Shown piece by piece: positions 35,273 to 55,299 of a DNA stretch of 64,000 bases. Every line of letters begins with the position of its first letter. Position 1 is the first letter of the stretch. The notes under the pieces were generated by a model. That model saw nothing but the letters and a program-made list of their open reading frames with translations, had not been told where the DNA came from and ran no database searches. Source of the DNA: Amyloporia xantha (taxonomy: Eukaryota > Basidiomycota > Agaricomycetes > Polyporales > Adustoporiaceae); assembly GCA_036971615.1 (NCBI GenBank), contig JAYKKR010000011.1, forward strand, positions 1,259,683 to 1,323,682. The letters are read 5' to 3'. A program made the translations under genes and the position numbers.

Positions 35273-35492
35273 TGTCGTACGACCTGGTATTTTTCCAGAT
35301 GAAGGAACAAACAACCTAAGTCAAAAAATATGGAAGACGGATTGTGGAGGACGTACACATTCTTCAAAAATGCTGCAATCCCCGACAACCTCAATCTCAT
35401 AGATGGCGCATTGCAGAGACCGCCCGAGGAATAAAGATTTTCCGGAGGCTGAGTCGCATCTGCTTTCAGTATACATACCATTTGTGTTTCAG

Positions 35493-35603
35493 CAGTAGTG
35501 TCAGTTATAGTGGATAATCTTCTCAACACTTTGTACATTTTTTTGTCTAATCCACCCCACACCTGAGTGCTCCACACTCTTTAATCCTGGGATAATCTAG
35601 TGA
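35493..35603 (+). repeat. Left terminal inverted repeat of the KDZ element
   Basis: Contains GGATAATCTTCTCAACACT, a T7 run, ACCCCACACCTGAGTGC and ends near GATAATCTAGTG. Its complement is found at the right end with one mismatch in the core; the outer ~20 bp are less conserved. Confidence 0.88.
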
Positions 35604-36060
35604 GAAGTCACTTGGAGTCCTAATCCCAATCCAAAGATTATCTGCTTTGTTGGATTATCCCATGCTTACCCTATGATTATCCCAATTGTCCTCAGTGTCT
35701 CTCCCTTCATTATCCAGGATTATCCATGGGATAATCTAGCTCCATGGCCTCCATAATATGATCATCTCACCATGAATATAGACTCTGAACTTGAGATAAT
35801 CCACCTAGGATAATCCACTTCAGATTTTATTGAGCTAATCCTAATCCCAACTAGAGATTATCCACCTACAAGTTGATTGTGCTAACCCTACATCTAACAG
35901 ATTATCTACTCTATATTGAACTAGACATTATCCACATCCAAGTTTACTAGGCTAATCCTACATCTAATAGGGATTATCTACTCTATATATGCAGCACTAT
36001 ACCAGAGATAATCCATATCCAGCTTTAAGATGGTTAATCCTACCCTTAGAGTCAAACACC
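35604..36060. repeat. Left subterminal array of GATTATCC motifs
   Basis: About a dozen copies of GATTATCC/GGATAATC and one-base variants, in both orientations and irregularly spaced. No gene. Probably transposase binding sites (inference). Confidence 0.75.
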
Positions 36061-36169
36061 AGGGAGGACAGGGCACACGCAACATGCGCGCACTGTGCAG
36101 CCCCGTTCGCGTGTTTCCCGCACCCGATCAGTCTCCGCCCACGGCGGGTAACTCCAGTAACTAGGATGA

Positions 36170-36560
36170 ATGATCCGCGAGGGCGCATCAGCGAACGTAC
36201 TCTTCGTCAGGAAGGTACAGAACATACGGAACATACCTGGTGCACGCTCGCCGCAGTGCGCGGACAGCCGATCGTCCCCGGGCGATTGCGAAACCCTACT
36301 TGGGAGCGCATCAGCATCCGCGCTCGTCGTCGGGCAGGTACAGAACATACGGAACTTACCTGCAGTGCCCTCCCTACAGTGCGCGGACCACTCCTTACAG
36401 TGCACGGACGCCGCGCGATTACGAAACCTTCCCTAGAGGGCGCATCAACGCCAGCGCTCGCCGTCGGGAAGGTACAGCACACAGGAACATACCTGTAGTG
36501 CCCTCCCTACAGCGCACGGACGACGTGCCATCGTCTCCGCACGATCGCGAGACATTTCGC
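36170..36560. repeat. Tandem repeat, about 135 bp unit, three copies
   Basis: The unit runs from GGTACAGAACATACGGAAC through CAGTGCGCGGAC and GCGATTGCGAAACC to the next GGTACAG. The three copies differ by small changes. Several frames stay open through it on both strands, a by-product of the repeat and its GC content, so I assign no gene. Confidence 0.6.
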
Positions 36561-38765
36561 TTCATGTACATATGTAACCTTAATCGCATTAGTCGGGCGC
36601 CCGTCGTTAGGGAGGTAAAGAACGTACCGCGCGGGATGCTGTCGGACGAACGAACCAGCCGGCGCATTGGCATCCGTGCAACTGTACTGTATATACATTC
36701 CATTAGCTTTCTGTGCTGTGATATCAGCAGAACTCAATGATAGCTACATACCTTGTATATTCACCGAGAACGGCTTCCAGACTTGCTCGGGTGGGGAGCC
36801 AACGTCGAGCCCCATGTCGTGACGGGCGTATTCGCGCGAGAAACGGCCGTACTCACGCTCCGACGCTGACGGCACGGGAAGCCTCTGATCGACGACCAGC
36901 ACTCGGATGCGCCAACGCTCGAGATGTACGGACGGCGGCGAGAGCACTGTAACCGTGGAGACAGCTTGCGTAGCAGACGCCTTCTGTACATATGTAAATG
37001 TGGCAGCATCAGTCTCGGCCCAGCATCAGAACATCACCGTGAGCACCTTGTCATTGCGTATTTAGGACGCGTCTATGCACTTCGCCAGCATGTTCGCGCT
37101 GTCCCACACACCCCTAGCAAAGCTACAGCGTTTGTAATTCTAATTTTATCATCCCATGATATCCCTAAACCAACTAAAATCCTTGAAGAACGCATCAGTA
37201 TTGCGGCAATATCCAAATTAAAAAGGGAACCCACCATCAACGACGGCAGGTGGGCGCGAGCAAAGTCCCCGGGATCGCTTGCCCCGCCTTCTTGCATCTG
37301 CTGCAGTACTTGTTCGTCCGGACGAACTCCGCCGCCTCCTGAACCCCACACGCAGTCCTGTACTGCGTGTTTCCGCGCCACTTCCACGGAGCCTGCGCAC
37401 AGTGCCTGTGCTTGCGCTGCGTCGTCCCCCCACAAAGGTGCTGGGCATAGACGGCTTGGCACATGCTACTCTTGTCCGTGAGTTGCACACGAAGATCTCG
37501 ACCATCTTACTTACCTAGAACGTTGAGTGAGTCGAAAAGAACAGAATTCAGAATAGAAGTGTTGCGTATCAAGTGAACTGGACAATTGGCATGCGCGATG
37601 TAGCAGGTCGCCCGCGATCGACGATGATCGACGATGATCGGCCATGATCGACAACGATCGAGCCACTCGATTCGCCAACTTTTGAGTTCCTGCACAGCCA
37701 TCCGCGCGCAGCCTCTGCCTGATGTCCGCGAACAGGTGAGCGTCGGTCTCACTCTCCCTGCGCGCGCTCCGAGCGCACTCCTCACGCCGCGCAGCGAGCG
37801 AACTGCACGATGAGCGTCCAGTAGTAGCGGTCTTCGGGGGGGGGAGAATTGCGAGCGGAGGGTGCGGGCGCTGAGGGCCATTGTAACGTCGGCCGCTGGA
37901 TCTCCTCCCCGCCGACGTCCTCTCGCCCGCCGACGTTCTCTTCTCTCGCCCCGCCGACTCTCGCGTTCGCTCCCCCCAACCCTGGGCCCGCCCGACGTCC
38001 GCTCCTCCCGCCCGCCCATCTCTCGCCCGCCCACGTGCTCTTCTCACGCCCCGCCGACTCTCGCGTTCGCTCCTCCGTGTTACGGCAGTATTTGAGGATC
38101 TCTTGAGGGATCTCGTGGGTGAACCAGGGCGGTTCGGATGTTGACGACGCAACTGGCGCCGTCTCTGTGTCCGTCGCTGGCGAACCGAACATCCACAGAG
38201 TGAACGCTTGTGGCAATCGCTGTGATGGGCGCGCCAGACCCATTCGTGTAGTCGCTGAGGAGTGATTCCTGACCAGGCGCACGGGAGTAACCTCTCAGCG
38301 CACATGGTCGAGTCTCAGAGGCGTCTGGATGGCGCCTGCCATCCGTTCGCGCACCTGTCTTCGCTCTATCGGTGAGAGCTTACCCGCCGTCACGAAGACG
38401 TCGAGACACCAATAGGCTAACACAACGTCAGTTCGGATCCGTTATGCCATCAACCTTGCTCACCGTACTATAATCCAATTTGTCTCCGTCAGGATCCTTT
38501 CTGACCTCGCGATACACTTTCGAACAGTCCCTGGCCATCGACTCATACATTGCAGCCTTCTTCAAAGCATACGCCCTCGCCCCTCACGATAACTCCGCTT
38601 TCTCACTCGTCTTCACCCATGCAGCTGACATGTTATTCCAACCCAATATCGTCCTGCGGAACTCCACATGCAATTTGTTGACTTCCTCATCGACACGTTG
38701 CTTTTCAGCGCGCGCGGAACCATTGCACACGCTCGACTACCATTTGAGTGAGTGGATATCAAAGA
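36561..38765. other. Element interior without a confident gene
   Basis: Some minus-strand text at 37237-37488 has a Cys pattern (CSRCKK) but no exon chain could be built. 37610-37665 has a run of GATCGACGATGATCG-type repeats. 37905-38075 has a GC-rich direct repeat of about 117 bp (shared CCCCGCCGACTCTCGCGTTC). 38326-38765 shows nothing recognisable. Confidence 0.4.
37905..38085. repeat. GC-rich direct repeat pair
   Basis: Two copies, about 117 bp apart, share CGCCCGCC(G/C)ACGT and CCCCGCCGACTCTCGCGTTC. Pyrimidine-rich on the plus strand. Long open frames here are compositional. Confidence 0.55.
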
Positions 38766-41700
38766 TTATGACCAGCTGTGTATATGCTCACCTTCGGACT
38801 GCCAGACATCTGCTGTAGCTTCCGATGACCCAGGGGGAACAATACTCCATATCCATGACCGTAACTCCTTACTGTCACCCTGAGTACGTGGCGTCCATAG
38901 ATTTTTGCTGACAAGATCCTTGGCGAGATCTATAGGCTTTAAGCCCATCGCAGAATCGTCAATGTACAGATTTGAGAGGCGCTCCCTGTTGAAGTTATAC
39001 AACGAAGCGAGGGCTTTCGTGTGTTCCGCTGCGGTGCGGATTATCTTCTGTGCACGCGTGTTGTCTTTCTGGCCTCGCGCGTGCTTCTGCTTGTCTGCGA
39101 GAAAGGCACCTTGATGGTTCAGGGCTTCCTTCACGGCATTGAGGAGGTCATATGCCCGGCCGACCCGTATACGCTGCTCGAATACGCCAAGCGTCTCTAA
39201 ATCCATCGTGCGCCGCTCATCATCGGTGAAGTCTGATGGGAGAGCCAGGGGTTCGGTCTCGGGTTTACCGTACGCATCACCTTCCCCGTCGTCATCGTCA
39301 TCGCCGGTCTCGCCCTCGTCAGTGTCAGGCAGGTCCACTCTCGGCATATAGGTCTCCTGCTCTTGACACCATTTGTCTAGATCGTTTCTTAGGGCCTGGC
39401 GCGCGGCTGCGATGCTCGCGGCATTGTCATCTGCATCCGCATCACCAGTTCGCGACTTCTCGTATTTCACTAACCGTTGACGGAGGTCATACCTATAAAC
39501 GTCGGTCAAGTTAATGTGAGCCACAGGGTGAGCACGCTTACTGTTGTTTCTCGATTTGCATACTGGTCTTCAGGAAATGGGCCGCACCACTCGGGGCTTT
39601 ACCAGCAGCGAGATCGACGTGACGATCGTTAGGCTCGATTTCCAACTTCGCGAGCTCCCTATACACCTTGCCGACACTAGGCACTAGTAATGTCATCAGG
39701 GTATGCATCCAAACAAACACGAATGACATACCCTTCGACTCATCCAGCATGTAAACGCTCTCAATCTTCTACCCTCTCCGGACCTTCTTTCCTTTCATAA
39801 TCTGCGGACCGCTTGGTACATGCTTCTGCTCTAGAGCAGCCCATGTTGTCACCCGCGCTGCTCCCGCTAGATGATTCAGCGCACTGAATAGAGTAGTCTT
39901 CTGCTCTTGCAACTTAAACGCTTCGCGGAGTTTCCTGGCCAGAAACATTGCTGGTCCCAATATCAATGAATGCAGTACAATTGTTATAACCAAGCGGCTT
40001 ACTCCTCGTCTCGACCTTGCGCCAATTCCAATAATTGTGAATGGCGTTAAGCACGTCGTGGCGATGGCCGGCACTCATCTCGCGAGTGCTCAAACCCGCT
40101 TGATTGTGCTCTGCCCACGGATGCTCCACACTTTCACCGTGGGTTAGGCCCGCACCCCACGAGTAGCATAGCGCATATATGATCTGACAGGCCTCCTTGT
40201 GCGCGAGCATGTGCATCTTCGGCAGAAGCAGTTGCATGCGCGCCAGCAGCGGGAGGAGATGTGGAAAACGTTTTCCGAAGCGTGCCATCAAATTGATTTC
40301 ATAGATGCATGCAACATCATACGTGAAGATGAAATGCAGCACTTCCTCCAGGCCTTCCAACGCGCCTGCCAGAGCAAAGTCCATGTGCCCGTACCTGTCA
40401 TGATCGTCAATCGGGCCCGATTTCAATCACAAAGAACAACTCACCTTTCACCCTTCTGAAGATCAACCATGGCCCCGGGTCTGAAACATCCATGACGAAT
40501 GCATATGACCGCAACTACGCCACTGACTTCCAGATTACGGAACTTGCCCGGGCGCTGAGCACGGCCCACCTTGAAGCCACTGCATGTTTCAGGCTTGCGC
40601 ACGATGAGGTCATGACTTCATTGACAGATCACAAGGCGAATGCACTCACCGGAGGTTCAGCATCAATGTCCTCCATGTAATCTTTCATTTTCTGCGGATT
40701 CACAAAATACCCTTGTCCAGGCGCTAAGCTCACGTCGTGCTTCCGCTTCTTCTGCAAGCCATGGTTGCCGTCGCCGCCCAACTCACACGCATGAATATAG
40801 CTGCCAACTCGAATATCAGATTGAATCAACAGGTATCCAATTGAAGACTCACCCTAGATCGGCTGGCGTGTCCTTCCAGTTTGGGGGCAAATTGAAGCCT
40901 GGCCAAGGGCAAGTGAAACAAGGCACGGTGAGCGTCCCAGCCGGCCGTCCTGGTAACTCCATCCCATGATGGTTGCCACTGCGTTTGATCATCATTAAAT
41001 GCAGCCAGAGGCGCGAGATCACGTTGAACTCCCGATAGCGATTCTGCACACATAGGCTAATAGTTAGCACTTAGCCATAGTTAGTCTGCATTACATTGCT
41101 CACCTTTACATTGTGAGGGGCGGCGTTGTTCGTTAGGCGTCGTAGAGCTTCCATGTAATCATACACGCTCTTCTTCGACGTTAGAAAATGGATATCCCAA
41201 TCTTTGAGAAGCTGCACCGAAAATGCGCTCTCTGGGTGTTCAGTGGTGGCCGGAAACAGCCCCGCGCAAAAGCTGAGATATCGGTTCCCTTCGGCCTGCA
41301 CAATGGCACCAGTGGATACGCGCTTGGTGGATGCCATTTGTGTGGGTGACGACGAGATTCGAGGGCGCGACTGCATGAGATAGGTGAGGACACGGTCGAC
41401 CTCGGTGGCCCAAATAGTACACCAAACCCAGCGCGGACAGGTCACGCTTCTCGATGTAGTGCCCGTTCCAAAAATCCACCCAATGGAACGGCTGGTGACG
41501 GTGGGCCTTGACTATGCAAGACGAGCACTGGGGGTCACTGGCGAAGCAATCGTGACACCGCCCTACTGCGCGTTTACCGCATAGACATAACCCTGGCATG
41601 CCTTCAATGTGTTCGCTCTCGAGCAGATCCTGGAGAATTGCAGGCAAGAGTGGCTTCCACTTCTCCAGTACTTCGGATACCCCATGCTATACGACTATCG

Positions 41701-42040
41701 TTAACGGGTGCGCAGAGCCTATGCAGGGCATGCGTACCTTCACTCTGCTGTTCGAAGGCGTGCTTTTGTCACATGTTGAGGTCGAGTCTTCAACAGATGC
41801 TTTCGGCGATTCATCAGGACTTTTACTATTTGACGACATTTCTGCAGCCTCTAGGAGCGGCGGGGATGTTTCGCGCCGAATCTTCTTCTTCTTGGGGGAG
41901 GTGTCCATAAGCCGAATCTCAGGAGTAGAAAGGTGATGCTTGCCAGCTGGATCGATCACCACCTTGTCGAAGACCATATCTACCTGAGAACGCACTTCGC
42001 GAACTCGGAACTGAGCGCGTTTCGAGCGAGCACGTTTCAT
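38766..42040 (-). pseudogene. KDZ transposase with a frameshift
   Basis: The start is placed at 42040 (MKRARSKRAQF); exon 1 is 42040-41738 and exon 2 is 41686-41104. Exon 2 carries the CxC2-type cysteine cluster of KDZ transposases (CLCGKRAVGRCHDCF..., CSSCIVKAHRHQPFHWVDFW, LGLVYYLGHRGRPC). Then come ALRRLTNNAAPHNVK, CFTCPWPGFNLPPNW, and the catalytic core (YGHMDFALAGALEGLE, FTYDVACIYEINL, LLPKMHMLAHKEACQ, THGESVEHPWAEHNQ, STREMSAGHR, NYWNWRK). The C-terminal helical part (TYMPRVDLPD ... LPSDFTDDE) ends at 38766. Near 41262-41267 the frame jumps between SQLLR and GLFPATTEHPES; a loss of CG from a CGCGCG run would explain it. The enzyme is therefore probably not made in full from this copy. 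Confidence 0.85.
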
Positions 42041-43650
42041 GGCAGGTACACGCGTATAGTGCTGGAGTTGGCGAATTGGAGGGATCAATGAAGGTGCGCG
42101 TGTACGCGGGTTGTGCGAGAGTAGGAGCAAAAGAATGTGGGCGAGAGGAGATGGGTGCGCGTCCACTCGCGACTGCGAGGGGTAACCCATTCTGCACTGG
42201 CGCATAATGCCCTGATTGCCGATTTGACCCGAGTACCGATAGCGCTGAGTGTTGCTTTGCCCTGGCAGCCATGCGCTCTTGCACCTCCGGCGTGCTTGTG
42301 TCGCCCGAAAGTGGCGCCACTGCCGGGTAAGCTCATAGGCAGGAGGTACACGATCCAACGGCGGACGTACCATGACAACAACAGACGGACACCTTGACCA
42401 TTTCGGATACCTTCCAGCGAGGCGCATGGTCACTGCACCATGCGAGATCTGGATACCGCCATCAGACGCGAATAGGACTGCAGAGCAGGGGCGGCACTGA
42501 CTTCGGGCGCCGGGTCCACGGTCTATACACAGGGTAAATGACGCAAATATGGGTCTGAGACGTGCAATCATTAGTCATGGAGGTGTTGTCAGAACAAGAT
42601 GGCCTACTAATCTTGGAGAGTGCATGCCTGCGTTGGTCCCCAGAATGTTCAATATGTACCACAGTGGGCGAGTGCTCCCGTTAGACGAACAATGAGTGAA
42701 GTTTATTATTGACAGAGGACTGCCACAAGCACATCGAGAACGTCGCCCAGATATGTTCATCACCCAGATATGTTCATCGCCCAGATATTTTCGTCGCCCA
42801 GATATGTTGCCAGAGATACAAGCCGGTCTTCATGTCGTCGCCAGTAGATTCACAGAGGCCTTGTCCCGAGATCGCTGAGAGGTCTTCAACCTGCGTTCTT
42901 GCCCACAACGCCTCGCTCCCTGGTAACTCAGGGCGAGATCGCTGTTCACTGGGTCTCAACGACGGCCGTACGGCCATCGGAGCGCACCAGGTCTTGAGGA
43001 TGTGTCCACGTCGGGGTGTTGAACTTGAGAGCGTTGGCGATGAGGATGATCCAGCGATAATCGCCTACGCCAAATATTTGGACGCCACCGAGACCAAATG
43101 TTTGGACACCAATGTTCCAGTGAAGGATGCGTTACAGTCACGGCTCTTGCTGCAATTTGGGCCAGTGGCTGGAACTGCGATATCGAGTATTATAATTGAA
43201 TATATCAGCGAGTGGAAGGCAAGATAATGAAGGAGCCACGATGCGAGGCCGCAAAGTGCGATTGAGGTGAGCGACGCAGGCCGCAGCCACTCAGCACGCG
43301 CGCTCAGCCACAAGTTCAATCGACCTTCACGCTCGATGCTGGCGTCAAGGGCAGTACCTCTCCCCTGTGTAGCTGCAACAACCCTAATGTGCCGGCGCCC
43401 GTATTAAACACTACACATGTGCTTGACTTGTAATGTAGATTGTGTCTTAACTCCCTTTTGGGTGCCTGGAAGCCGGCATAGGTCCGATTGCACCAAGCAC
43501 TGGCACTCAAAGTACGCCTTGCACAAGAGTATGCACATTGACATCAATTCAATTAAGCAGCCAGATTAGGGTACATGCCAATGTCTACTAAAATTATCTC
43601 TATGGTACGCGAATGCATGAAATCTGCTAAGTCTACTGAGTGTAATTAGA
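42041..43650. other. Between the KDZ transposase start and a repeat cluster; no confident gene
   Basis: Contains the transposase upstream region and a short tandem repeat at 42743-42807. The frame at 42709-43227 (plus) overlaps that repeat and has no recognised domain. I see no supported gene. Confidence 0.4.
42743..42807 (+). repeat. 17 bp tandem repeat, four copies
   Basis: CGCCCAGATATGTTCAT is repeated about four times with one or two changes per copy. Confidence 0.75.
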
Positions 43651-44125
43651 GGAGGCTTCAGCCACATCGCCTGAATGGGGCACAGATCAGGTGCAGGATT
43701 CAGACGTGTGAGCCTGTCGGCGCCTTGAGTCGCAGGGTTTTGTATCAAGATGACAGCCGAATATACATACCATCTACTAACACTCTACACCAGTACACGC
43801 ATATTATGCAAGAGCTTGAAATTGGCCAAGTCTGCTCAGCGCGTTGGAGGAGACTTCAGCCACATCGCCGAATCGGGCACAGATCAGCTGAGGGATTCAG
43901 ACGGTCCAGCGTGTCGGCACTTTGAGGCTATCACACGACATAATATTTCGCGCAGGGATTTGTATCAAACTTACAACTGAGTGTACATACCGTCGACTAA
44001 CACTATCTGGATGCTACGCTAACCCTTGAAAGCCGCCGAGTATCCCGAAGGCAATTGGAGGCTTCAGCCACATCGTCCGAATCGGGAGCAGCTGATTCCG
44101 ACGCCTCAGCCTCTCGGCGCAAGCC
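43651..44125 (+). repeat. Three direct repeats about 200 bp apart
   Basis: GGAGGCTTCAGCCACATCG followed by GAATCGGG and GATTCAGACG/GATTCCGACG recurs at about 43651, 43846 and 44057. The linking sequence is also similar (TTTGTATCAA, CATACC, CTAACACT). The third copy opens into a longer frame. Confidence 0.65.
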
Positions 44126-44384
44126 GAGTTGGCAGACTCCGCCTGAACTTACAGACGAAGCTAATCTCGAGGATAATCGTGGCAGTGAACTCTCACTGTC
44201 CTGGCAACTCTCTTCACGGCGTCTGCCCTTCGTGCTCAAAGCCTCGGATTTCGACCTCAAGCCCATCGACAGGCCTCAAGTGTTGGTTGTGCGAACGGAA
44301 GGCAGTTGCCTGACGAACGCCACTGACTTCCTGCCGTGTGCGCTGGAGAGAGCTCTCTCCTTGCGCCTGGCATCGGTCGCCTAG
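44055..44384 (+). CDS. Possible exon of an unknown protein
   Basis: An open frame of about 109 codons (EASATSSESGAADSD..., SWQTPPELTDEANLEDN) begins in the third copy of the direct repeat. It has protein-like composition but no recognised domain, and its start codon is uncertain (a TTG heads the frame). It could be a 5' exon of the gene at 45061-47079, but no joined exon chain could be proved. Confidence 0.3.
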   Translation: MEASATSSESGAADSDASASRRKPSWQTPPELTDEANLEDNRGSELSLSWQLSSRRLPFVLKASDFDLKPIDRPQVLVVRTEGSCLTNATDFLPCALERALSLRLASVA

Positions 44385-45060
44385 AAGACCACCGCAAGAA
44401 CGATCCCCTGGTGTCTCTAGGCTCTCGGTACTCTGCTTGCCGCTGTCTCCGTACCCTCTAGCTTCTCAAATTGTTGCTCACTGCCGTCGCCCTGTCGTTG
44501 AAACCTCCTGGATCTTGACTTTGCAATCTCGTGGCGTTGTTTTCCGTCGCTGCTACACGCGTCGGCCCCCCTTTCCGCGTGTCACTCCGGCTTCCTTTAC
44601 AGCCGTACGTTGCTCGCTCTTGTGGTTTTGCCAGTCTAACCGCCCTTGTCATTCACCCGATGACTTGCACAGGTCTCCCCTGATACGGTTGGAAGGTAAG
44701 TGATTTGAAATTATTTATTTGCCTAATCACTTTCTCTCGGGTGTAACCATGTAGCGCGCGAATACTATTGTTCACGGTGAGTGCCCGAGCACTTGTCTCA
44801 TGATTCCTCGCTTATTGGGCCATCACGCCATTGATTCCTTCCAGGAACTCAAAGCACGTCATTCTCTACCACGGGCAGCTTGGCCTGCGGCGTAGTATAG
44901 AGTCAATATAGTTCAATAGTATGTCGTGTGTGCGCCGTCCAACGCGTGTGTTCATACATGCAATTTAGATCGAACACTTTGAAGCGACATGTCGGCAGCA
45001 CCGCTGTGTTTGAAAGAGACCCCTCGGTTGCTCCGTGAGTAGAGATTCCCAGTAGCCGTC

Positions 45061-47079
45061 AGGGACGCACTAAATCAGTTATGGCTAGGGGCTGGGGAAC
45101 CCATAGAGTGGAACGATGGCAAGGTGGCTAGTGTCTGGAGCATGCACGCCGAAGCGGTTGTCACCAGTCCGAATCAAACCTGGATTCCGGAATTCCCGAG
45201 GGTTCAGCCGGGAGTGATTACGTCCCGCGTAGATGGCCGCTGGGGTCCCCAGGAGTATTCGAGATGGCCCCAGATGTACGATATCAAGATTCCCCACCAT
45301 GCGTGCATCCCCGCGTGCATGCGCATTGCACCAGGAGATCCGCGTGAATTAGGCGTGCAGGATATCGTTTGGCGTCGCTTCGAGGAATGGGACTGGCACG
45401 AAGACGTTCTGTGCGGGGTGCGCCGTCTGGGGTTTCTGAAGAGAGATTGCATGGATGAGCTTGTAGGCGAAGCGGAGCGTATTATGCAGTTCTTCGAAGC
45501 GAGTGGTTCTGGTGTACTACAGGACAAAAAACAGCTCGGCCACAATCTCTGTGGTATTCTGCGGCAAGCAATCGACCGTCTGCGGAAGCTCCCCGCGTCC
45601 AAGATGCACGTCATCGCGCTTGCAGCACACATCCAGCGTCTTGCACTGGAAATTGCAGGATATGTGAACTATCTGGAAATCATCGCGCCGAGGATTACAC
45701 TTCCTACCTTCCATGCCAAACTCGTATTGAATATCCGTGGAGCTTTCACACAGAACCCTAGCACTGCCCAATCGTTGTTCAGGGTGGGTGTCCCTGTGTG
45801 GTTTATACAGGATCTCACAGCACGCGTCAAGGTCCATCGTGTCATTGACGACCCTGTCCCCATCGAGTCTGAGTTGGCACTAGCACAGGCGTGGCCGAGG
45901 ATATACAGTGGCCAGGGTGATCTGGCTGGATTAGTGACACGGGTTGGAGATTGGCCGTATGTTATGAATAGGGAAGTCACGCGTGCCCTGGTGGATCAGT
46001 GCTTGCCGGTGTTACCCCATGACCCCGTGGAAGACGACCGCGACTCAAAGCGCCGCAAACTGGGTGGTCGTACTCATCGGGGCACTCGTGGTCGGGAGGG
46101 CGCGAAGGGCGGATCGTCATCAGGACCTGCACATCCTTCTGTCGAACACCAGGCGGTCCCGGGCTGCAAGATACCTCCATGTTGGGAGGCCGCGCTCACG
46201 GCAGTCTCACCGCTGCCCTCGCCCCCGACTTCCGCGACATATTATTTCCCTCCGCCCTTCCTATTCGTCGGTGTGAGAGAGCCCCTGAGTGATAAAACCC
46301 GCCGATATATACACAACTATGTACGCATACGGGGCTTCTGTCGCCACCGCCTACTTGACCCTGCAATCGGTGGCAAGCCGTTGTCAATCGCCGAGTGGAG
46401 GGACAGTCTGTATGGTGACTACACGCTTGATGTCGGAGACAACGACCCCGGCTCTTCTTCCAAGTCCAAGGGCAAGAAAGTCACTCGGGCACAGGAACGT
46501 CATCAAATTGCTCAGAATGTGCGCAAGCTGTTCGCGCAGACGGGTGGTTTACCATCGTACTCGCCCTCCCAACTGGTACTGTGGGGCTCGAATGAAATCA
46601 ACGGTGAGGCAGCGGGCTCGGGTGAGCTACGGGCGCAAATCCTGTGGGAGGTCCACGAGGTCAACTGGCGGTGTGAGGTTCGCGCGCTCGATGAAGCCAT
46701 GACCGGGAGTTCACAGTGGTCCACGCTGCATCAGTGGGATCGAGAAGCTCTGGTTGCGCGAGTCTGGACGTCGGGTGCGAGCGCACTCTCTGTAGTCCCG
46801 CAATGGGAAAGCGAACGCCCCGTGTTTTGTTGGTTGTCCTTGGTCGAAGAAGGCTGGAGAGACAACCGTTGTTTCCTCAAGAGTCTCATCACGCTCATGG
46901 ACCGATGGTCTGGTTTACCTGATGAATTGCGGGTTCAGCCAGAGTTGGTCATGTCGTGCGCTGAAGCGGAATACAACTCTCTTCAGCGTGCTGCCACTCT
47001 CTTCTACGCTCGCTGCTTCGTCCGTGTATTTCGTCGTCTTCCCGTAGTTCCCATGTACATTCCAGCTAGTTTACCGTGA
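45061..47079 (+). CDS. KDZ-element cargo protein of about 670 aa, function unknown
   Basis: One long exon ends at 47079. The frame is open upstream of 45124 to about 45061, where a CAG boundary follows a plausible intron, so the true start lies further left (perhaps in exons at 44.7-45.0 kb, where NTLKRHVGS is readable). The N-terminal half is globular (PHHACIPACMRIAPGDP, RRFEEWDWHEDVLCGVRRLG). The middle is basic and disordered. The C-terminal part has EVNWRCEVRALDEAM ... FCWLSLVEEGWRDNR and ends RRLPVVPMYIPASLP, with the look of a recurrent Agaricomycete family of unknown function seen near transposons. No catalytic motif, signal peptide or membrane segment. It lies within the KDZ inverted repeats on the strand opposite the transposase. 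Confidence 0.65.
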   Translation, partial: RDALNQLWLGAGEPIEWNDGKVASVWSMHAEAVVTSPNQTWIPEFPRVQPGVITSRVDGRWGPQEYSRWPQMYDIKIPHHACIPACMRIAPGDPRELGVQDIVWRRFEEWDWHEDVLCGVRRLGFLKRDCMDELVGEAERIMQFFEASGSGVLQDKKQLGHNLCGILRQAIDRLRKLPASKMHVIALAAHIQRLALEIAGYVNYLEIIAPRITLPTFHAKLVLNIRGAFTQNPSTAQSLFRVGVPVWFIQDLTARVKVHRVIDDPVPIESELALAQAWPRIYSGQGDLAGLVTRVGDWPYVMNREVTRALVDQCLPVLPHDPVEDDRDSKRRKLGGRTHRGTRGREGAKGGSSSGPAHPSVEHQAVPGCKIPPCWEAALTAVSPLPSPPTSATYYFPPPFLFVGVREPLSDKTRRYIHNYVRIRGFCRHRLLDPAIGGKPLSIAEWRDSLYGDYTLDVGDNDPGSSSKSKGKKVTRAQERHQIAQNVRKLFAQTGGLPSYSPSQLVLWGSNEINGEAAGSGELRAQILWEVHEVNWRCEVRALDEAMTGSSQWSTLHQWDREALVARVWTSGASALSVVPQWESERPVFCWLSLVEEGWRDNRCFLKSLITLMDRWSGLPDELRVQPELVMSCAEAEYNSLQRAATLFYARCFVRVFRRLPVVPMYIPASLP

Positions 47080-47473
47080 CGTGATGGTGATGTCGTGTAT
47101 GGCTTGTAGATATCCCGGTTTACTGTATCAGCATCATGCTTCCTTGCCCTGACCATGTGGACGTTGCTGATATCTCCCTTGTCATGAGATTCAGAATAGG
47201 ACGCGGGTCCGGCATGTTTGACGCGATACCCGGACACAGTCTGATGATGATCGTGCTGAATTCCATTGATCGACGCTAACCTTCTGCTTTCTAGATTTTT
47301 TTTCGGGCAAATAAATGCGAGCGCATCATGACGAATTTGGTAAGTGTGCTCATGAGTGCGGTATGAAACTGAACAGAAATTTGTGGCACGAATATTATGT
47401 GTGCATGTATTTGAGCATACCCAGCAGCATATAAAGGCGGCCTGAGCTCGGGGCGTTTTTGTACTGCACAAAC

Positions 47474-48655
47474 ATGATAAGGGCAGACACTCGCGTCAAA
47501 ACCATCGTCAACCAGTTCATACCCTCCCGTGCGGTGATTCGCGGCGCTGTGGTTCTTTGCACCACGAATCCCGACGTTCGTCATCTCGTCGTCACCAGTT
47601 ATGGAGTGGCGAATGAAGGTTCGCTCGGAATGCTGTTCGAAATTGTGAGTAAAGCTCTCTTTGATTGGATAACGGTCCTGACACATTATGAGCTAGTGCC
47701 GTCAGCCTGAAGCAAAGCGATGCGCGCGTCATTTGAAACCGCTCAGGATTCAGATGACGAAGGAGCAGCACGACTTATGTATGGACCGCGTTCGTGCGCT
47801 CGACCCGCCGGCGTGTCTGGGCGGAGCGGGCTACTACACGGGCCCCGAACTTCAGCCTCCACCCCGACTCCGACGAACACGCCGAGCTGTGTGCAGACGC
47901 TCACTGCGACTCCCCGCCGAGGGCGCCCGCCGTTGAAGACGGAGGAGATTTTGGTGACGATTTATATCAAGGTACGGTGGTTTCGCATTTGCAACGTTAT
48001 GACAAAGTGCTGATGGACGCTGAGCCAGGACAACGAGGAACCGATCACAATCCCTGCGAAAGGCATCCAGCGCGAAGGCTTGTTGGAGTTCACCTTCCGC
48101 CAGCGTAATATCTATGATGTGCTGGGGATAGAGGACAACGAGTCCTCTGTCCCGTATGAACGCTTTCATAGCCGTCTGGGCTATTTTCTCGGCTATCCTA
48201 AGCCCCACGATAAGGAGTATTTGATGCCGGGGGATCCTGTAGTCTACAGACTGAAGAGCGTAGCGTGGTGCCCGGGACTCAGCGCCTTCACAGAAGTGCG
48301 GCCGATAATATTCCCGGATCCGCTCCCGGCGTTGCTGAAGGGCGTGGATGTCGGCGTCGGGAAGGCTGGGCCTTCTACTCCGAAGCGAGGACGCGAGCCG
48401 TTCCCCTTGATTTCGCCGCTGACCGCTAGTAGCTCGCGGACGTCGGACGGTCGTAGCACAGATGCTTCCCCCGCTACTCCTAGCTCTGGTTACAAGCGTA
48501 AGCGTTTAGCGGCGCACGATGGGCGTTCTAAGGCGGCGGCGAAGAAGCCTTGCAGCAAAGGGAAAGCTCGGGTGATCGAGATCGAAAGTAGCGACGAGGA
48601 AGCACCTTGGGAGTTGATGGAGAGCGACGAATGGGAGGTAGAATCGCAGATCTAG
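47474..48655 (+). CDS. KDZ-element cargo protein with basic/acidic tail, function unknown
   Basis: Exon 1 (47474-47644) starts MIRADTRVKTIVNQF and ends at GTGAGT. The last exon (48029-48655) starts DNEEPITIPAKG and runs through REGLLEFTFRQRNIYDVLG and YLMPGDPVVYRLKSVAWCPG to a Ser/Lys-rich tail that ends in an acidic patch (IEIESSDEEAPWEL). One or two middle exons lie in 47706-47970; their exact joins are unresolved because three frames look partly coding. The tail (KRKR, KAAAKKP) suggests nuclear localisation. No domain recognised. It sits between the two other cargo genes on the same strand. Confidence 0.55.
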
Positions 48656-49129
48656 ATAGCGGATATATCTGCGCATTGTTCGGCCAAAAAGGTTATTTTT
48701 CAAGAAATGATTTCTTATCAGCTGCGACTGTACCTGACTGAAAGCGCGTCGGCCGGAATATAGTTGGTTAGGCTGATACGGTGCGCATGGATGTGGCTTA
48801 GGAAAACATCGGGTACTTGGCTGAGTTTTCCCGGCACAGGTGGTCGGATTAGGCTTGGTAAGGTCATTAGTCTGCTGACTGAGTGGCAGGACTAACCTTT
48901 GAGACAGCCGCGGCAGTTGCGTAGTGACGAGTGTACATGCAAGCCCGTCAAATTGTGTGTAGCGTCGTCTTTCCCCGTTCGCCACTCGTGTGCACTCTGC
49001 CTTTCCTTCCCCCCCTCCAGGGGATACCACATTCGTTCAATTCATCCCCCCCCCTTCGTTCAAGCCATTCCTCTATTGCCTTGCGGTTCGCTGGATTTTC
49101 TCTACCCCAGCCGTCCATTTTAGCTCGCA

Positions 49130-51549
49130 ATGGTGGCTTCCGCTGGCATCAGCGACGAACAGGAGGGTGAGGTGCAGGAAGTCGCACGTCAGGCTAGGAT
49201 GGTCTGGACTCCAGCGCAGACGGCGTACCTAGAAAGCACTCGAGCGGCATGGCAGGATATCCCCCAAGACCGCGAGCGGCGCAATAAATTCAGAGGGGAC
49301 GTAGAGGATGAGCTCTTGAAAAGATGGTCATTTCCCAACGCGAGTTACCTGCGCTTGGTCAGTTTTCGTCTGCTGTCTTAGATCCAAGACTGATTGTTAC
49401 CCTCAATAGTCCATTCGCAACTGGTACAAAAACCATGGCGCAGGCACGAGTTCGACAGTGAATGAGCCGCACCATGCGAAGTCTATGTTTGGACGGCACA
49501 CACGCTCGCTGGGTGCCTCGGAACTCTGGGGGCAAGAGAACAAAGATATCGTTACGGCTGCTGTTGGGAGTAACGGGATGGTCGGACACGGCGGGAATCG
49601 GAACGCGGTCCGTTCGCAGCTGTTCGACGCTCTCCCGATAAGATCAAGACAGACTGGGCAGAGAAAGCGCAAAAAGCCAAGGAGCAAGCGGCGAATGGTG
49701 ATGTATGGGATGCTATCACTATGTGAGTTGTGCCTTTATGACGGATGGTTAATTTTCTGACGTTGATTTGACTTAATTAGCAATCAAGAGACAGTCTTTG
49801 ATGTTATTGGATCGGAATTGCATAAGCTGATTGGGCACGGCCGAAACCAAATAGGAGATGCCGTTATCTTCCTCCGCATTGCGTTTGTGAATGCGAGGGG
49901 GGAGAAGGTAACACGCACGTAGGTGTCTTTCATAGATATACATTGATGAGGCTGAACGTGTGCCCTCAGGATTTCGATCGGATGCACGGCGAATGGAATC
50001 GACTTCGGCAACTTCGAAGACAATAGACCGGAGAACATTAAATGGTTGCGCTTTATTGACCTGGCTCTGCGTACGTATGTCTTAAATTGTGCCGCATCAC
50101 CAGTACTGATACATATATTCATCAGCGTGTGCTCGTCCAGGCGTGAATCAAGGAATCACATATGATGAAGACGGCAAGCCGCTCCTGCCAATGTGGGTGC
50201 CGGAGCGATCAATCGCTGAATCCATGAGTACTCTCCAGGCGTATTTAGAAGGATTGTGGGGTACGTTATTGATGCAGTGTCTACAAACGACGTTCTGAAT
50301 GAACATATTTCAGCTTATGCCCATGGTCATGGAGGCGACACACCACCAATCGACTGGGAAGCCGTCAATGACCCGAAAATGAACATTTTATTACCCATGT
50401 GGCGCGACGTCAATCTACAGGACCTGGTGGACATCACTCAGAACACTCCAGTCAAATTGTTGACACTCTACATCGACATATACGACAAGCAGGGTACCGA
50501 CATGGCACTGGAGTTCCGTCTTCCTCGTGACGGAGAATCTAAGACGGCTAGGGACAACACCGAGGTGGCGGGTGCAGCCGAGCACGATGTCAACCCGGAT
50601 GCCTCGTCACGCGCATCGCAAGTCGGGATGGTCACGCCTCAGCGAAAATCACAAGAGCAAATCGTAATCCCCGTACTCGATGATGAAGAACAGGAAGTCG
50701 GTTGTCGATACCAGCACGGTGTCGTTGCCGCCACGGCGCCAGGATCGAGATGACGCTCTCGTGGGAGCCAGTGGCAAGGAAGACGACGACAAGGGCATCG
50801 ATATTCCGATATCGACGCCTCGCAAGAAGGTCCCGATTTCGACGCCTTGCAAGAACACGCCGATATCGACCCCCCGCAAGAACACCCCTGGGCCGATATC
50901 AACCCCCGCAAGAACACCGCTATATCGACTCCTCGCAAGAACACCCCGATGTCGACTCCTCGCAAGACGCCAGACATGGAAGCCAATGGTGACAAGCCCG
51001 CGCCGCTGGCAAACATGTTGCCAAGTGGGGTGATGCGCGAATCCCCGAAGAAGCCGACAAACGTGTCTCCGTTGAAGATGGCTGGTCACGATGAGGAAGA
51101 TCGCGATGCTGAAGGTGAAGAAGAGGAGGCGGGGGAGAAGGATGACGAGGAGGGTCCTGAGAGCGGTAGTGCCGTTGAGAGTCGTCAGTCGGAGGAGTTG
51201 GAGGGGGCACGGGTCGGGTCAGGTAGTGGGGTCAGTTCGGAAACATTGAAGGTGCGTCATATGTGTCTTGCTCAGGTGGGTCAGGAGCTCACAACTCTCA
51301 TTACTAGCGTGCTGCTTCCCGCAAGAAGGCTGCCGCGCCTATACCCCAGGGGCGGACGAGCGCGCGCTTACTGTCGAAGGCTAATGGGTACGCTTCATTC
51401 ATTAATATCTTGGAATACGAGTTGATAATCATGGTGAAAGGGACGGACGGATGGTCACGCGCGGTGTCAAGCGTGTGATGGACCCGGGCAGCCAGACTGC
51501 GAAGTCAGGACCCACGGGGAGGCCGGCCAAGAGGCCGAAAGCCAAGTGA
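49130..51549 (+). pseudogene. KDZ-element cargo gene with DNA-binding-like N-terminus and STPRK repeats, two frameshifts
   Basis: Inferred exons: 49130-49357, 49410-49722, 49781-49918, 49970-50070, 50126-50260, 50314-50700, 50750-51251, 51308-51385 and a last exon to 51549. The N-terminus (VWTPAQTAYLESTRAAWQDI ... FRGDVEDELLKRW ... SIRNWYKNHG) looks like a helical DNA-binding module typical of KDZ-linked fungal proteins (from memory). Later come repeats of ISTPRKNTP, an acidic stretch and a basic end (PTGRPAKRPKAK). Two one-base shifts break the frame: at 49634-49636 (CCC where CCCC would keep frame before GATAAGATCAAG) and at 50903-50907 (C5 where the neighbouring repeat has C6). Both are in C runs, so sequencing error is possible. 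Confidence 0.6.
50810..50985 (+). repeat. 27 bp-type coding repeats (ISTPRKNTP)
   Basis: Six or seven imperfect copies of ATATCGACNCC(T/C)CGCAAGAAC. Each encodes ISTPRKNTP or a variant with a threonine-proline site next to basic residues. The frame shifts midway through the array. Confidence 0.75.
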
Positions 51550-51940
51550 CGATTTTGTTGCTTGTGGATGTGTGCGGCATGTCTTGCCATAGTATACCCT
51601 TAGTTGGATTGTTCTCTTTCTTGCATATCCATTCCTTCCATCTCCACTCATTTCATCTTCGTTAGTTTTGTGCTATCGGAAAGTTCCTTGACTTTGGACA
51701 CTCACGTGACTTCTAGTTCTCACGTGCGCCTTCCTTCTAACCCTCGCGCGCACTCTTTGTATCGCGCGCGGTCTTTCTAATCCTCGCGCGCCATCTTTCT
51801 AATCGTGTTCGGTGTTTCTTCGGTGTGTGCTCATTGTAATCCTCACCTGCATTTCCATCTCATGCATGTTTTAATCCATAGGGGTGGTCTAATACTTTTG
51901 CTCGCCTCTATCCTTTGTGCTGTTGGCAACTTCTTTGACT
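51550..51940. other. 3' flank of the last cargo gene
   Basis: Pyrimidine-rich sequence with repeated CTTTCTAATCCTCGCGCGC-like text at 51730-51800. No gene seen. Confidence 0.4.
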
Positions 51941-51941
51941 T

Positions 51942-52452
51942 TGGACTAGTGGTAGTGGATAAGCCATTGTAATCCCCCTTGGATAATCCTGTCTATTGGA
52001 TGGATAATCTTTGGTAAATAGGAAAGATCATCCTTATGTCTAGTAGATAATCCTGTTATAATCCCCCTTGGATAATCTTCTCTATTGGGTGGATAATCCT
52101 TCTTGGACTTTGGACTAGTGGTAGTAGATAAGCTGTTGAAATCCCCCTTGGATAATCTTGTCTATTGGGTGGATAATCTTTGGCAAATAGGAAAGATCAT
52201 CTTGATATCTTGTAGATAATCTTGTTCTTAGCTTTATGAGGTTGGGCAATCTTACTGGGGATTATCCTCTGGTTCATGGATTATCTTAGTTTCTAGGGAG
52301 GATTAACTTGAGGATAAGCATGGGATTAGGTGAGCATACAGTAGGATTATCCTGGATGGTAGGGTTGAATCAGAGGCAAAACTCAGGGATTATCCAGGGA
52401 TAAGACACTGGATTATCCAGGGATAAGAATATTGAGACAGTGCTACTGTCCA
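51942..52452. repeat. Right subterminal array of GGATAATC motifs
   Basis: A unit of about 170 bp (starting GGACTTTGGACTAGTGGTAG, with CCCCCTTGGATAATC and GGTGGATAATC) is present twice, at about 51942 and 52112. Single GATTATCC motifs follow up to the inverted repeat. It mirrors the left end in motif but not in order. Confidence 0.75.
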
Positions 52453-52560
52453 CTAGATTATCCCAGGATTAAAGAGTGTGGAGCACTCAGGTGTGGGGTG
52501 GATTAGACAAAAAAATGTACAAAGTGTAGAGAAGATTATCCAATATAAATGACAAAGACG
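52453..52560 (-). repeat. Right terminal inverted repeat of the KDZ element
   Basis: Complement of 35493-35603, with one mismatch in the ~90 bp core (CTCTACACT against CTCAACACT). Confidence 0.88.
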
Positions 52561-55299
52561 GTTTCAGTACGCAGCTGGAATGGACTATGGCGTCGACATG
52601 CGTTCTAGCTGGTCAGCCACTGCTTGGTAGTCAACAATACGCGGTTGCAGGACCGCCGAGGGAGTAACGAGTTGCCGACACGAACAAGTTGCCCATATAA
52701 TCTTATACCATCAATTAGTGACTATGACTGCACTCTTGTCATGATATGTCGGCTTCAGATACCTGCCACTAGACTTGTCCAGAGTTCGGGAAAACCTCAA
52801 GGCATCCATCGCGAACAAAAGAAAAATCTCGGAATTTGATTCTAGGGGTGATGGGTGACTTCGACATCAAACGAGGATGTCCTTGTGTGGTCTGATGCTG
52901 CGTGAAATGGTACACACGTCACAATCGCAGTAAAGTCGGGACACTGTGCTACTAACCTTCTTAGGTAGTCACCATGCGCTCGACGGGCGAGTACAATCCT
53001 CTAGATGCCAGATTCATACTGTTTAACGGATTATTCACCCTAGCGTCTGATAAAAATAACATTACATAGTAATTACCTGAGAACGCTGTTTAGCCGCGCG
53101 CTTTGTAATACAAGTCACAGTGAAACTCACGAGGACGTGGAGTTACTGATAGAGGTGTTTGCATAATCTGGGCTTAGTATAAGCGCAGAAGGGTAGTGTA
53201 CGAGGAAACACGGACACCAATGTACCGAGTACAGACGGGCCCTAGTTGTTCCTGCCAAATGTCAAGCCAGTTATCTCCGCACCCTCTACTGGTAACTGCT
53301 CTATAAGTGCCAAGAGATAGACGGTCGTGAATTTTAATTCCAATGAACTTACATTGCCTAGCAAGAGACGGGAATGACAATATAGATCAATGACGGAGAC
53401 ATGTGTGAGGGAAGGTAGCAGATGAAGGCGTAACCTTGTATTGATCATAGCTTCATCCATACACTGTATCAATATATGCAGCGATTAATAGAGAGCCACA
53501 GTAGCCCATGGAGGAATGTGAAGTCAGGGAAGCGGAAGCCCCGCACTGAATCGCGCGGCTGCACTGCGAGAATGTACAAAGAGTATCACTGTCGTTAAGC
53601 CTCTGGATTGAGAGCGATCTACATCTACCAAGTCAATCGAGGCTGTCTTTGACTGATGTAGCTACCAGACAGGTCGAAGGACCGAACTGAAGAACTGCAC
53701 GGAGAGCGCTGATGGGCGATCGCGTTAGCGCCAAGATGCACTGCAGACGGTCATAACTGTTATTAAGAACTTACATCATGACAAAATTGCCATATGAGAA
53801 TACTATACGCTGTTATATATACTTCCCGAACAGGAAGTACAAGAAGCAGAGCCGAGCGATATGAGTCAGGTATAACGGTAGCATATTTGACTTGACAGTG
53901 GAGACTCACCTGAACTGAATCAAAAATGTACCTCATATAAACGGCGTAGAGGGGAAGAAATTATCAGAAACGTGAAACGGCGTGAAGACAAGTATTCCGA
54001 AGGTTAGAAACACTCAGAGCACGCTTGCCGCGCCACGTCAAAACAGAAGGATTCATATAGCCTGGAGTGGGCAAATATCACGACAAGCATCGTCAAATTC
54101 GTTGCCAATGTTCTTCATATGCAATGAACGTTGAATGGAATGCATCCACAGCCAAGGCCTGACGGCAATTTGCAGACGTTCAAAGTAGGAAAGCCATCGA
54201 GATCCTCAAGCGCTTAAACTCCGATCTCATGCTCCCCACGCCCTCCCACGCCACCACCGCTTTCAGCAGCCTTCGGGTCAGGACTAAATGGCGAACTAAA
54301 CAGTTATGCAGTCAAGATGAGCTACGCTTGGCGATAGCAAAGACCCTCCCTTTGAAAATATTATCGTTCTCTGTGTACTGATTGCTGAAGGACGCAATCA
54401 CTGGGATTAGGTGTGTTTAGCAAAGTGTTCGTACTGTTAGATATATTTGACAGCACTAGTCGTCTTATGTGCAGAAATTCGACTGCGCAGACTCTGTACT
54501 CTGTTATTTTACAGGATTGTACAATATCCGTGTTGTACTGATATCCTGACGCGGTATCTCTCGAGCGTAAGAAAAGTCGTCGACGTCTGGATCGGTGTGT
54601 GGCCTCCCCAAGCTCTAGTTTCAATGGAAGGGCATGAATGAGAGATATGGCATAAGGCTGGCTTGACGATCATACAATACGTTTCTATCATTTTCCTTAT
54701 CTCGCTTCTCCACGATAGTCTACGGCTCCCAGCGTCTTCAGTCACCGGTGGCGGCGAAATTTGCTTTCATTTCAATATGATGTCTTTTGTATTTCTCTAT
54801 CGGGCGGTCCATCCTTGACGGTATAAGCGGGCGCAAAATACGCAGTCATGACGATGTATTAGCATGCAACTTGCGCACGGGCGACTTAGCCCCCAATATC
54901 GGACAGCACTTGACGCACCTGGACGGGCGGTTCGTTAGACGCGACCTTAGACATGACGTGCATCAGCGTAGCCTCATGTCCGCCCCTCGCTAGATGTCCA
55001 TACCTGTCCACGCAGACAGCACGCACATGCTACGGGTCGCTCTTCGCACGTTCGCATCAAACATCAACAAGAAATGTTCAAGAAAACCTATTTCTCAAAG
55101 ATAGAGTCCATAGCAATGACTCCGAGCGGCTGCAATCGAATGCAGAGCGTAGGGCGATTCCGCCTCCTCGGGCGTAATTTACAATCTCAACCTGTATCAT
55201 ATGCCATCTGAGTGGAGTACATAGGTATCCGTTATGTATAGAGGTTATATCTGTGACATTGATTATTCGAGAACATCTGTCCTTGATCTTCCATAACAG
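52561..55299. other. Gene-free stretch with old flanks of the DUF6535 family
   Basis: About 52880-52960 resembles 58550-58640 and 10810-10860 (a GGTACA/GTACC stretch, then TCGCAGNAAA, then CTNACC). About 55000-55290 resembles 13856-14340. No intact frame and no recognised domain. Confidence 0.4.

Follow-up and report, generated by a model that had tools for sequence, protein, structure and literature searches.

The KDZ element and its genes

The 64,000-nucleotide stretch of Amyloporia xantha contig JAYKKR010000011.1 analysed here (the window) contains a KDZ transposon of 17,068 bp which, in addition to its transposase gene, harbors four conserved companion genes, referred to as A, B, C and D (Table 1). 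Inverted repeats of about 90-100 bp placed 17 kb apart, with a direct GTTTCAG outside both ends, had been proposed in the initial annotation, and both features were confirmed: the repeat arms measure 104 nt each, are 97% complementary and are separated by 16,848 nt, and the GTTTCAG copies correspond to a 7-bp target site duplication. The outermost bases lie outside the repeat, CAGTAG starting one end and CGTCTT, read inward, the other, and the termini of the element read CAGT...GACG. Searches were made in the whole genome (46.8 Mb in 60 contigs, denoted by labels such as C55 or C35, the window being the end of C3), and the left boundary is the position at which the alignment starts for the copies in C55, C21 and C28, all with different flanks, while the right boundary is where it stops for those in C55 and C21, the C28 copy being cut by the contig end.

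The gene models were built from the conservation between two subfamilies of the element, one including the window copy and the other, subfamily B, the copy in C35. As predicted, a single KDZ transposase is encoded on the minus strand, with Pfam matches to KDZ (PF18758, E 5.2e-49) and CxC2 (PF18803, E 4.5e-16), and the three or more plus-strand genes that had been announced are found where expected (A, B and C); gene D, on the minus strand, is added to them. The KDZ gene is the only one of the element with a Pfam match, none being obtained for A, B, C or D. The KDZ family was reportedly defined by Iyer et al. in 2014. The transposase contains the motifs DGN, YDVAC and HGESVE, which may hold the D-D-E catalytic residues.

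When the window and C35 copies are compared, the ratio of non-synonymous to synonymous substitutions (dN/dS) is 0.079 for KDZ, 0.117 for A, 0.148 for B and 0.278 for C, with synonymous sites near saturation, whereas the wrong frames give 1.3-3.0. Between the same copies, 29 of the 34 modelled introns are 42-59% identical and the other five 67-77%, a count that includes one intron of B later found to be false. Purifying selection acts on genes A, B and C, and gene A of the window copy is free of stops. The last exon of B, aligned in seven seq­uences, has 28 invariant columns, and towards its C-terminus the product of B has a basic stretch, with an acidic tail containing VIEIESSDEE, which presumably resembles a SUMO-interacting motif. 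The product of C displays STPRKNTP-type repeats and acidic patches. Gene D encodes seven cysteines, and 10 of its 14 differences to C35 fall at third codon positions; it was identified in nine members of the terminal-repeat family and once elsewhere, at C59:1540889 (42%).

Another feature of the element is the accumulation of the motif GGATAATC in its outer kilobases. The motif or its complement is found once in the intervening 15 kb and once in the remaining window, and the other copies with both ends, subfamily B included, retain the arrays at 8-10 and 10-12 per outer kilobase. Two further blocks, probably noncoding, lie in the interval from which KDZ and A are oriented outward, and their conservation exceeds that of coding sequence, their neighbours being 54-57% identical between subfamilies. 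The second of these blocks recurs at C34:2123446, adjoining a lone gene A. Near the left end a unit is present three times (36179-36524, with a spacing of 123 and 133 bp), a region around which copies of subfamily B give additional off-register matches.

Table 1. Features of the KDZ element in the window (positions are those of the window)
Feature	Position	Strand	Remarks
KDZ element	35493-52560		17,068 bp; termini defined by terminal repeats and alignment to other copies
Left target site duplication	35486-35492		GTTTCAG
Right target site duplication	52561-52567		GTTTCAG
Left end, terminal inverted repeat	35493-35602	+	repeat proper 35499-35602
Right end, terminal inverted repeat	52451-52560	-	repeat proper 52451-52554
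Outer left kilobase	35493-36492		8 copies of GGATAATC or complement
Outer right kilobase	51561-52560		12 copies of GGATAATC or complement
Gene D	37237-37464	-	75 amino acids, Cys-rich, basic
KDZ transposase gene with CxC2 cluster	38044-42427	-	17-exon model, 1120 amino acids; first and last exons uncertain
Conserved block, probably noncoding	42920-43110		86% between subfamilies
Conserved block, probably noncoding	44060-44413		85% between subfamilies
Gene A	44989-47079	+	678 amino acids; main exon 45089-47079; short first exon uncertain
Gene B	47474-48655	+	333 amino acids; exons 47474-47644, 47697-47825, 47897-47971, 48029-48655
Gene C	49130-51549	+	many exons; TPRK-type repeats and acidic patches in tail; tail model uncertain

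Copies of the element and their insertion sites

A search of the genome with the terminal repeats returned 40 matches. Seven of the pairs that they make up are long (window, C55, C21, C37, C35, C34 and C14) and at least seven are short; six of the short pairs, of 0.81-0.94 kb, were examined. As the initial annotation had anticipated, the ends pair round the same genes elsewhere, namely in six further copies with both ends and in one cut by a contig end. Exact 7-bp target duplications flank all 13 end pairs examined (seven long, six short), each of a different sequence. Computed over ungapped columns only and leaving out the nested insertions present in the C55, C21 and C37 copies, identity reaches 99.56-99.80% within the subfamily formed by the window, C55, C21 and the contig-cut C28 copies, and 99.95-99.98% among C35, C34 and C14, which C37 joins at about 98.9%; between the two subfamilies it is about 68%. 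The family looks to have moved recently, since three of its long copies are 99.95-99.98% identical.

Upon joining the flanks of the C14 copy, three places in the genome were found to match at 98-100% straight over the junction, and for the C34 copy at least 37 places did so; these are empty sister sites in repeated DNA. In all, such sites were found for at least six of the 13 insertions, two of the seven long and four of the six short ones. Only 40 of 395 candidates for the long and 40 of 314 for the short insertions were scored, so that a missing empty site there means little, and the query for the first short-insertion site was 67 bases short. Empty sites, named as a check in the initial annotation, were seen for two other long copies and not for the window copy, for which a separate search of the assembly found none.

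The short elements (C16:305861, C55:1538696, C25:333138, C6:602426, C3:175987 and C2:87007) are 94.7-99.0% alike, and their similarity to the long elements is essentially limited to the outer 106 bp and one 64-bp patch. The insertion sites of those at C6 and C3 recur adjoining TET genes, and the one at C2 lies inside what appears, by eye, to be a Copia polymerase gene. A further copy of the long element, C18:622500-640622, extends to the contig end and has its right flank in common with the window at 91-94%; it displays many small insertions and deletions, yet approximately its last 1.5 kb is 100% identical, and it represents an allele, a duplicate or an unpolished contig end. At C1:4034638-4038671 a left end is found with gene C just 3-4 kb off and no match to A or B nearby, and this locus is a rearranged derivative.

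Concerning the surroundings of the element in the window, four DUF6535 genes, all on the minus strand, flank it on both sides (6275-7774, 15681-16916, 21765-23102 and 55429-57393). An Rpb1 domain 7 (E 1e-50, 27086-27874, minus), part of the gene for the largest subunit of RNA polymerase II, is located 5-8 kb from the element.

Companion genes of KDZ loci across the genome

The KDZ set comprised 137 loci among the matches listed (181 matches in all), 13 second-exon or overlapping rows having been dropped; the gene A set comprised 40 loci merged from 76 rows, and the TET/JBP set 87 of 114 rows, 27 weak-class rows being excluded. Of the 40 gene A loci, 23 have a listed KDZ locus no farther than 8 kb away, about 1.8 being expected by genome fraction. 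Among the 137 listed KDZ loci, A was found within 8 kb at 25, TET/JBP at 70-71 and both at none, and a wider recount, extended to the full 114 TET rows and to 45 A loci, still returned none with both. The exclusion corresponds to a Fisher p of 6e-10 over the listed loci, a value that overstates the case because the copies are related. The distribution follows the transposase: at least 40% core similarity to the transposase of the window is found at 37 listed loci, 22 with A and one with TET, whereas among the 100 listed loci below 40% three have A and 70 have TET. Gene A is tied to the KDZ clade of the window. The A of the C55 copy was scored as a miss in the count of A loci near KDZ, nested insertions placing it 31 kb from the KDZ gene.

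The absence of TET/JBP from the window element, noted earlier from the letters alone, was also observed in the genome-wide search, none of the 114 matches falling inside it; among the 87 used, the nearest to gene A of the window is 357 kb away. KDZ elements with TET are numerous in this genome, 79 of the TET/JBP matches being over the family cut-off and many lying about 2 kb from a KDZ gene (for instance KDZ at C6:599200-599721 and TET at C6:601335-601727).

All 13 loci detected for gene B have an A no more than about 2 kb away. Gene C was found in the repeat family of the window, at C1 and at C59, and faintly at C9 and at a second C18 locus. Co-occurrence of these genes with KDZ transposases elsewhere, a check named in the initial annotation, was observed, with A beside KDZ in divergent elements and B beside A at each of its loci. 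In the clade of the window A and KDZ are divergently oriented, whereas seven loci of a clade at 42-49% (C9:225k, C43, two in C44, C10, C34:239k and C55:1878k) have A head-to-tail with KDZ and some 1.9 kb upstream of it, and these two gene orders indicate that the partnership has outlived a rearrangement. Gene A was also found, at 71% and with an open frame of 671 amino acids, at C34:2120735-2122714 with no listed KDZ nearby, and a set of A, B and C without a listed KDZ at C18:147340-154421.

For gene A, 52 relatives were retrieved among 7,996 scored candidates, and no Pfam domain is listed for any of them; 36 of the 52 were used in the alignment. Those with a name belong to Fomitopsis, Rhodofomes, Dichomitus, Earliella, Trametes, Ganoderma, Sparassis, Epithele and Polyporus; Rhodofomes, Epithele and Sparassis are placed in the Polyporales by taxonomy look-up, and the other six genera are Polyporales as well. 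Outside this genome, in Rhodofomes roseus EVJ58_g8945 (P0007), the relative of A is followed, within the same predicted gene, by a relative of B (38% over 256 amino acids, E 6e-51). The searches with B, for which the query was a 314-amino-acid model with the false intron, and with C, for which a 354-amino-acid part was used, returned P0053 and P0054 as sole relatives outside the genome, and these two, whose contigs have the same stated length (5,273), probably share one contig. The AlphaFold model of the A product has a predicted local distance difference score (pLDDT) of 87.3 and a predicted template-modelling score (pTM) of 0.87.

Possible roles of the companion genes and known systems

Based on these observations we favor, with moderate confidence, a reading in which the element is a Kyakuja-like KDZ cut-and-paste unit of 17 kb and A-D are its own helper set, acting on the GGATAATC arrays in transposition, in anti-silencing or in both. 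The KDZ transposase would perform the cutting and joining, assisted by A-D, and it would need little beyond the terminal repeat of about 105 bp, because the short elements share the ends and the 7-bp duplications. The four companion genes probably encode nuclear proteins that would act on the arrays in the outer kilobase of each end, helping the transposition complex to assemble and/or keeping the ends free of silencing marks; the tie to one clade, the maintenance of the genes, the basic and acidic tails of nuclear type and the motif arrays at the ends all point to an action on the element's own ends. By analogy, this role may be likened to those of TnpA of Spm and VANC of VANDAL in plants, and to that proposed for TET/JBP in the other KDZ clade. 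The initial annotation had described the genes as cargo, a label that we abandon: the genes reappear beside KDZ in elements that have diverged, selection maintains A, B and C, and the set consequently looks like the element's own. Roles of A-D in transposition or chromatin would be plausible, and the distribution of the two companions suggests that A replaces TET, although the same picture would arise from two lineages that had each inherited companions of their own.

Several observations weigh against this reading. The split between A and TET follows the transposase clades and may reflect shared descent and not replacement. Within a wider radius both A and TET are found at two listed KDZ loci (10 kb) and at eight (20 kb), which we attribute to neighbouring elements run together, and TET matches, one of them strong and three weak, lie within 8 kb of four of the 40 A loci. 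Moreover, 15 of the 37 closer listed KDZ loci have no A within 8 kb and 17 of the 40 A loci no listed KDZ, indicating that A is sometimes dispensable or sometimes missed by the search. The set also varies: the genome search gave no C at C6 and just a faint match at C9, and three more distant elements (C59:747k, C9:316k and C6:823k) yielded no match to D. In the window copy the tail frame of C is interrupted when compared with C55 (open frame of 447 versus 688 amino acids), and the lack of an empty site for this copy counts on the same side. Among recent copies the changes are too few for an informative dN/dS (1.87 for KDZ versus C55, from a handful of changes). Finally, the predicted fold of A gave no convincing match in PDB or BFVD.

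A possible alternative, which we regard as tentative, is that A-D serve transposition alone, through end binding, synapsis or target choice, in the manner of a multi-subunit transposase and with no anti-silencing. The confinement of the GGATAATC arrays to both ends, the company of A and KDZ in two gene arrangements and the selection on A, B and C would all be accounted for; nevertheless, the many listed KDZ loci with TET have no A nearby, and A is consequently not generally needed by KDZ, while the short elements indicate that the ends suffice as substrate and say nothing of A-D. Somewhat more doubtful is the converse, in which A and its partners B, C and D form an anti-silencing set that substitutes for TET/JBP and holds the element ends open. 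It is in agreement with the lack of listed KDZ loci bearing both companions within 8 kb and with the dense arrays of a short motif, which resemble the targets of VANC (PMC5735166), but the searches gave neither an enzyme-like domain nor a fold match, and the coincidence of the split with the transposase clades speaks against it. In its strongest form, which we consider unlikely, A with B, C and D would be a second, TET-independent anti-silencing system, specific for GGATAATC and with a fold absent from solved structures, and the lineages would be divided by the system they carry, none having both.

It is quite improbable that the genes are true cargo, host genes captured as passengers. The A loci remote from a listed KDZ, and four extra A-like open frames of 450-969 amino acids away from listed KDZ loci, could be read in this way, but A exists in many copies, is linked to KDZ in elements that have diverged and is followed by B in another genus (Rhodofomes), and no host pathway domain was found. 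A chance or nested assembly, with the genes in a separate insertion between two KDZ ends, can be dismissed in spite of the nested insertions in the C55, C21 and C37 copies, being ruled out by the collinearity of the 17 kb in copies at different sites, each with its own duplication, and by empty sister sites that have no such unit.

In the parts available, the KDZ literature treats companion genes mainly through TET/JBP, and the genome of A. xantha holds two differently accompanied KDZ groups, which represent a natural contrast for understanding the benefit of TET to a transposon and its possible substitution by another gene set. Since the family looks recently active, has short relatives with the same ends as potential substrates and keeps a gene A without stops, the question is open to direct test.

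The open literature on KDZ and on giant cargo-carrying transposons, covered for the most part by titles and abstracts, contains no such gene set in those titles and abstracts. In Cryptococcus, KDZ1, KDZ2 and KDZ3 are described as elements of approximately 9-11 kb with inverted repeats of 139-241 bp and duplications of 8 bp, or 4-8 bp for KDZ2 and KDZ3; the window element is similar in its large size and long inverted repeats, and differs in having CxC2 instead of CxC1 and in its duplications, and the available descriptions mention no gene set like A-D (PMC12810828). A CxC2 cluster precedes KDZ in the intact KDZ genes of Pleurotus, as it does here, the description compared being one of the genes and not of full element structure or companions (PMC7641404). 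In plants, VANC of VANDAL (PMC5735166) and TnpA of Spm (PMC10398659) are reported as element-encoded proteins linked to loss of methylation, the targets of VANC often being tandem repeats. The likeness, a second element-encoded protein together with repeated short noncoding motifs, is a functional analogy only: these are other transposon types with which no sequence relation is claimed, and on the side of the present element the motif arrays alone are seen.

A close comparison is with the TET-bearing Kyakuja elements of Agaricomycetes, found in Polyporales among other orders. As described by Kojima in 2025, Kyakuja duplicates 7 bp of target, Zisupton and Dileera duplicate 8 bp, two Kyakuja families of Laccaria have 5'-CA..TG-3' ends and no inverted repeats, and TET/JBP is proposed as an anti-silencing factor of the elements that carry it (PMC12730594). 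The element in the window has the KDZ domain and defined termini, with duplications that at 7 bp in every end pair examined fall within the 7-8 bp of KDZ transposons and agree with Kyakuja; unlike the two Laccaria families, it has 104-bp inverted repeats and ends in CG, not TG, at its other end (PMC12730594). With the TET-bearing Kyakuja it shares a KDZ transposase, the 7-bp duplication, one end in CA and an extra gene inside, and it carries A, B, C and D but no TET/JBP (PMC12730594).

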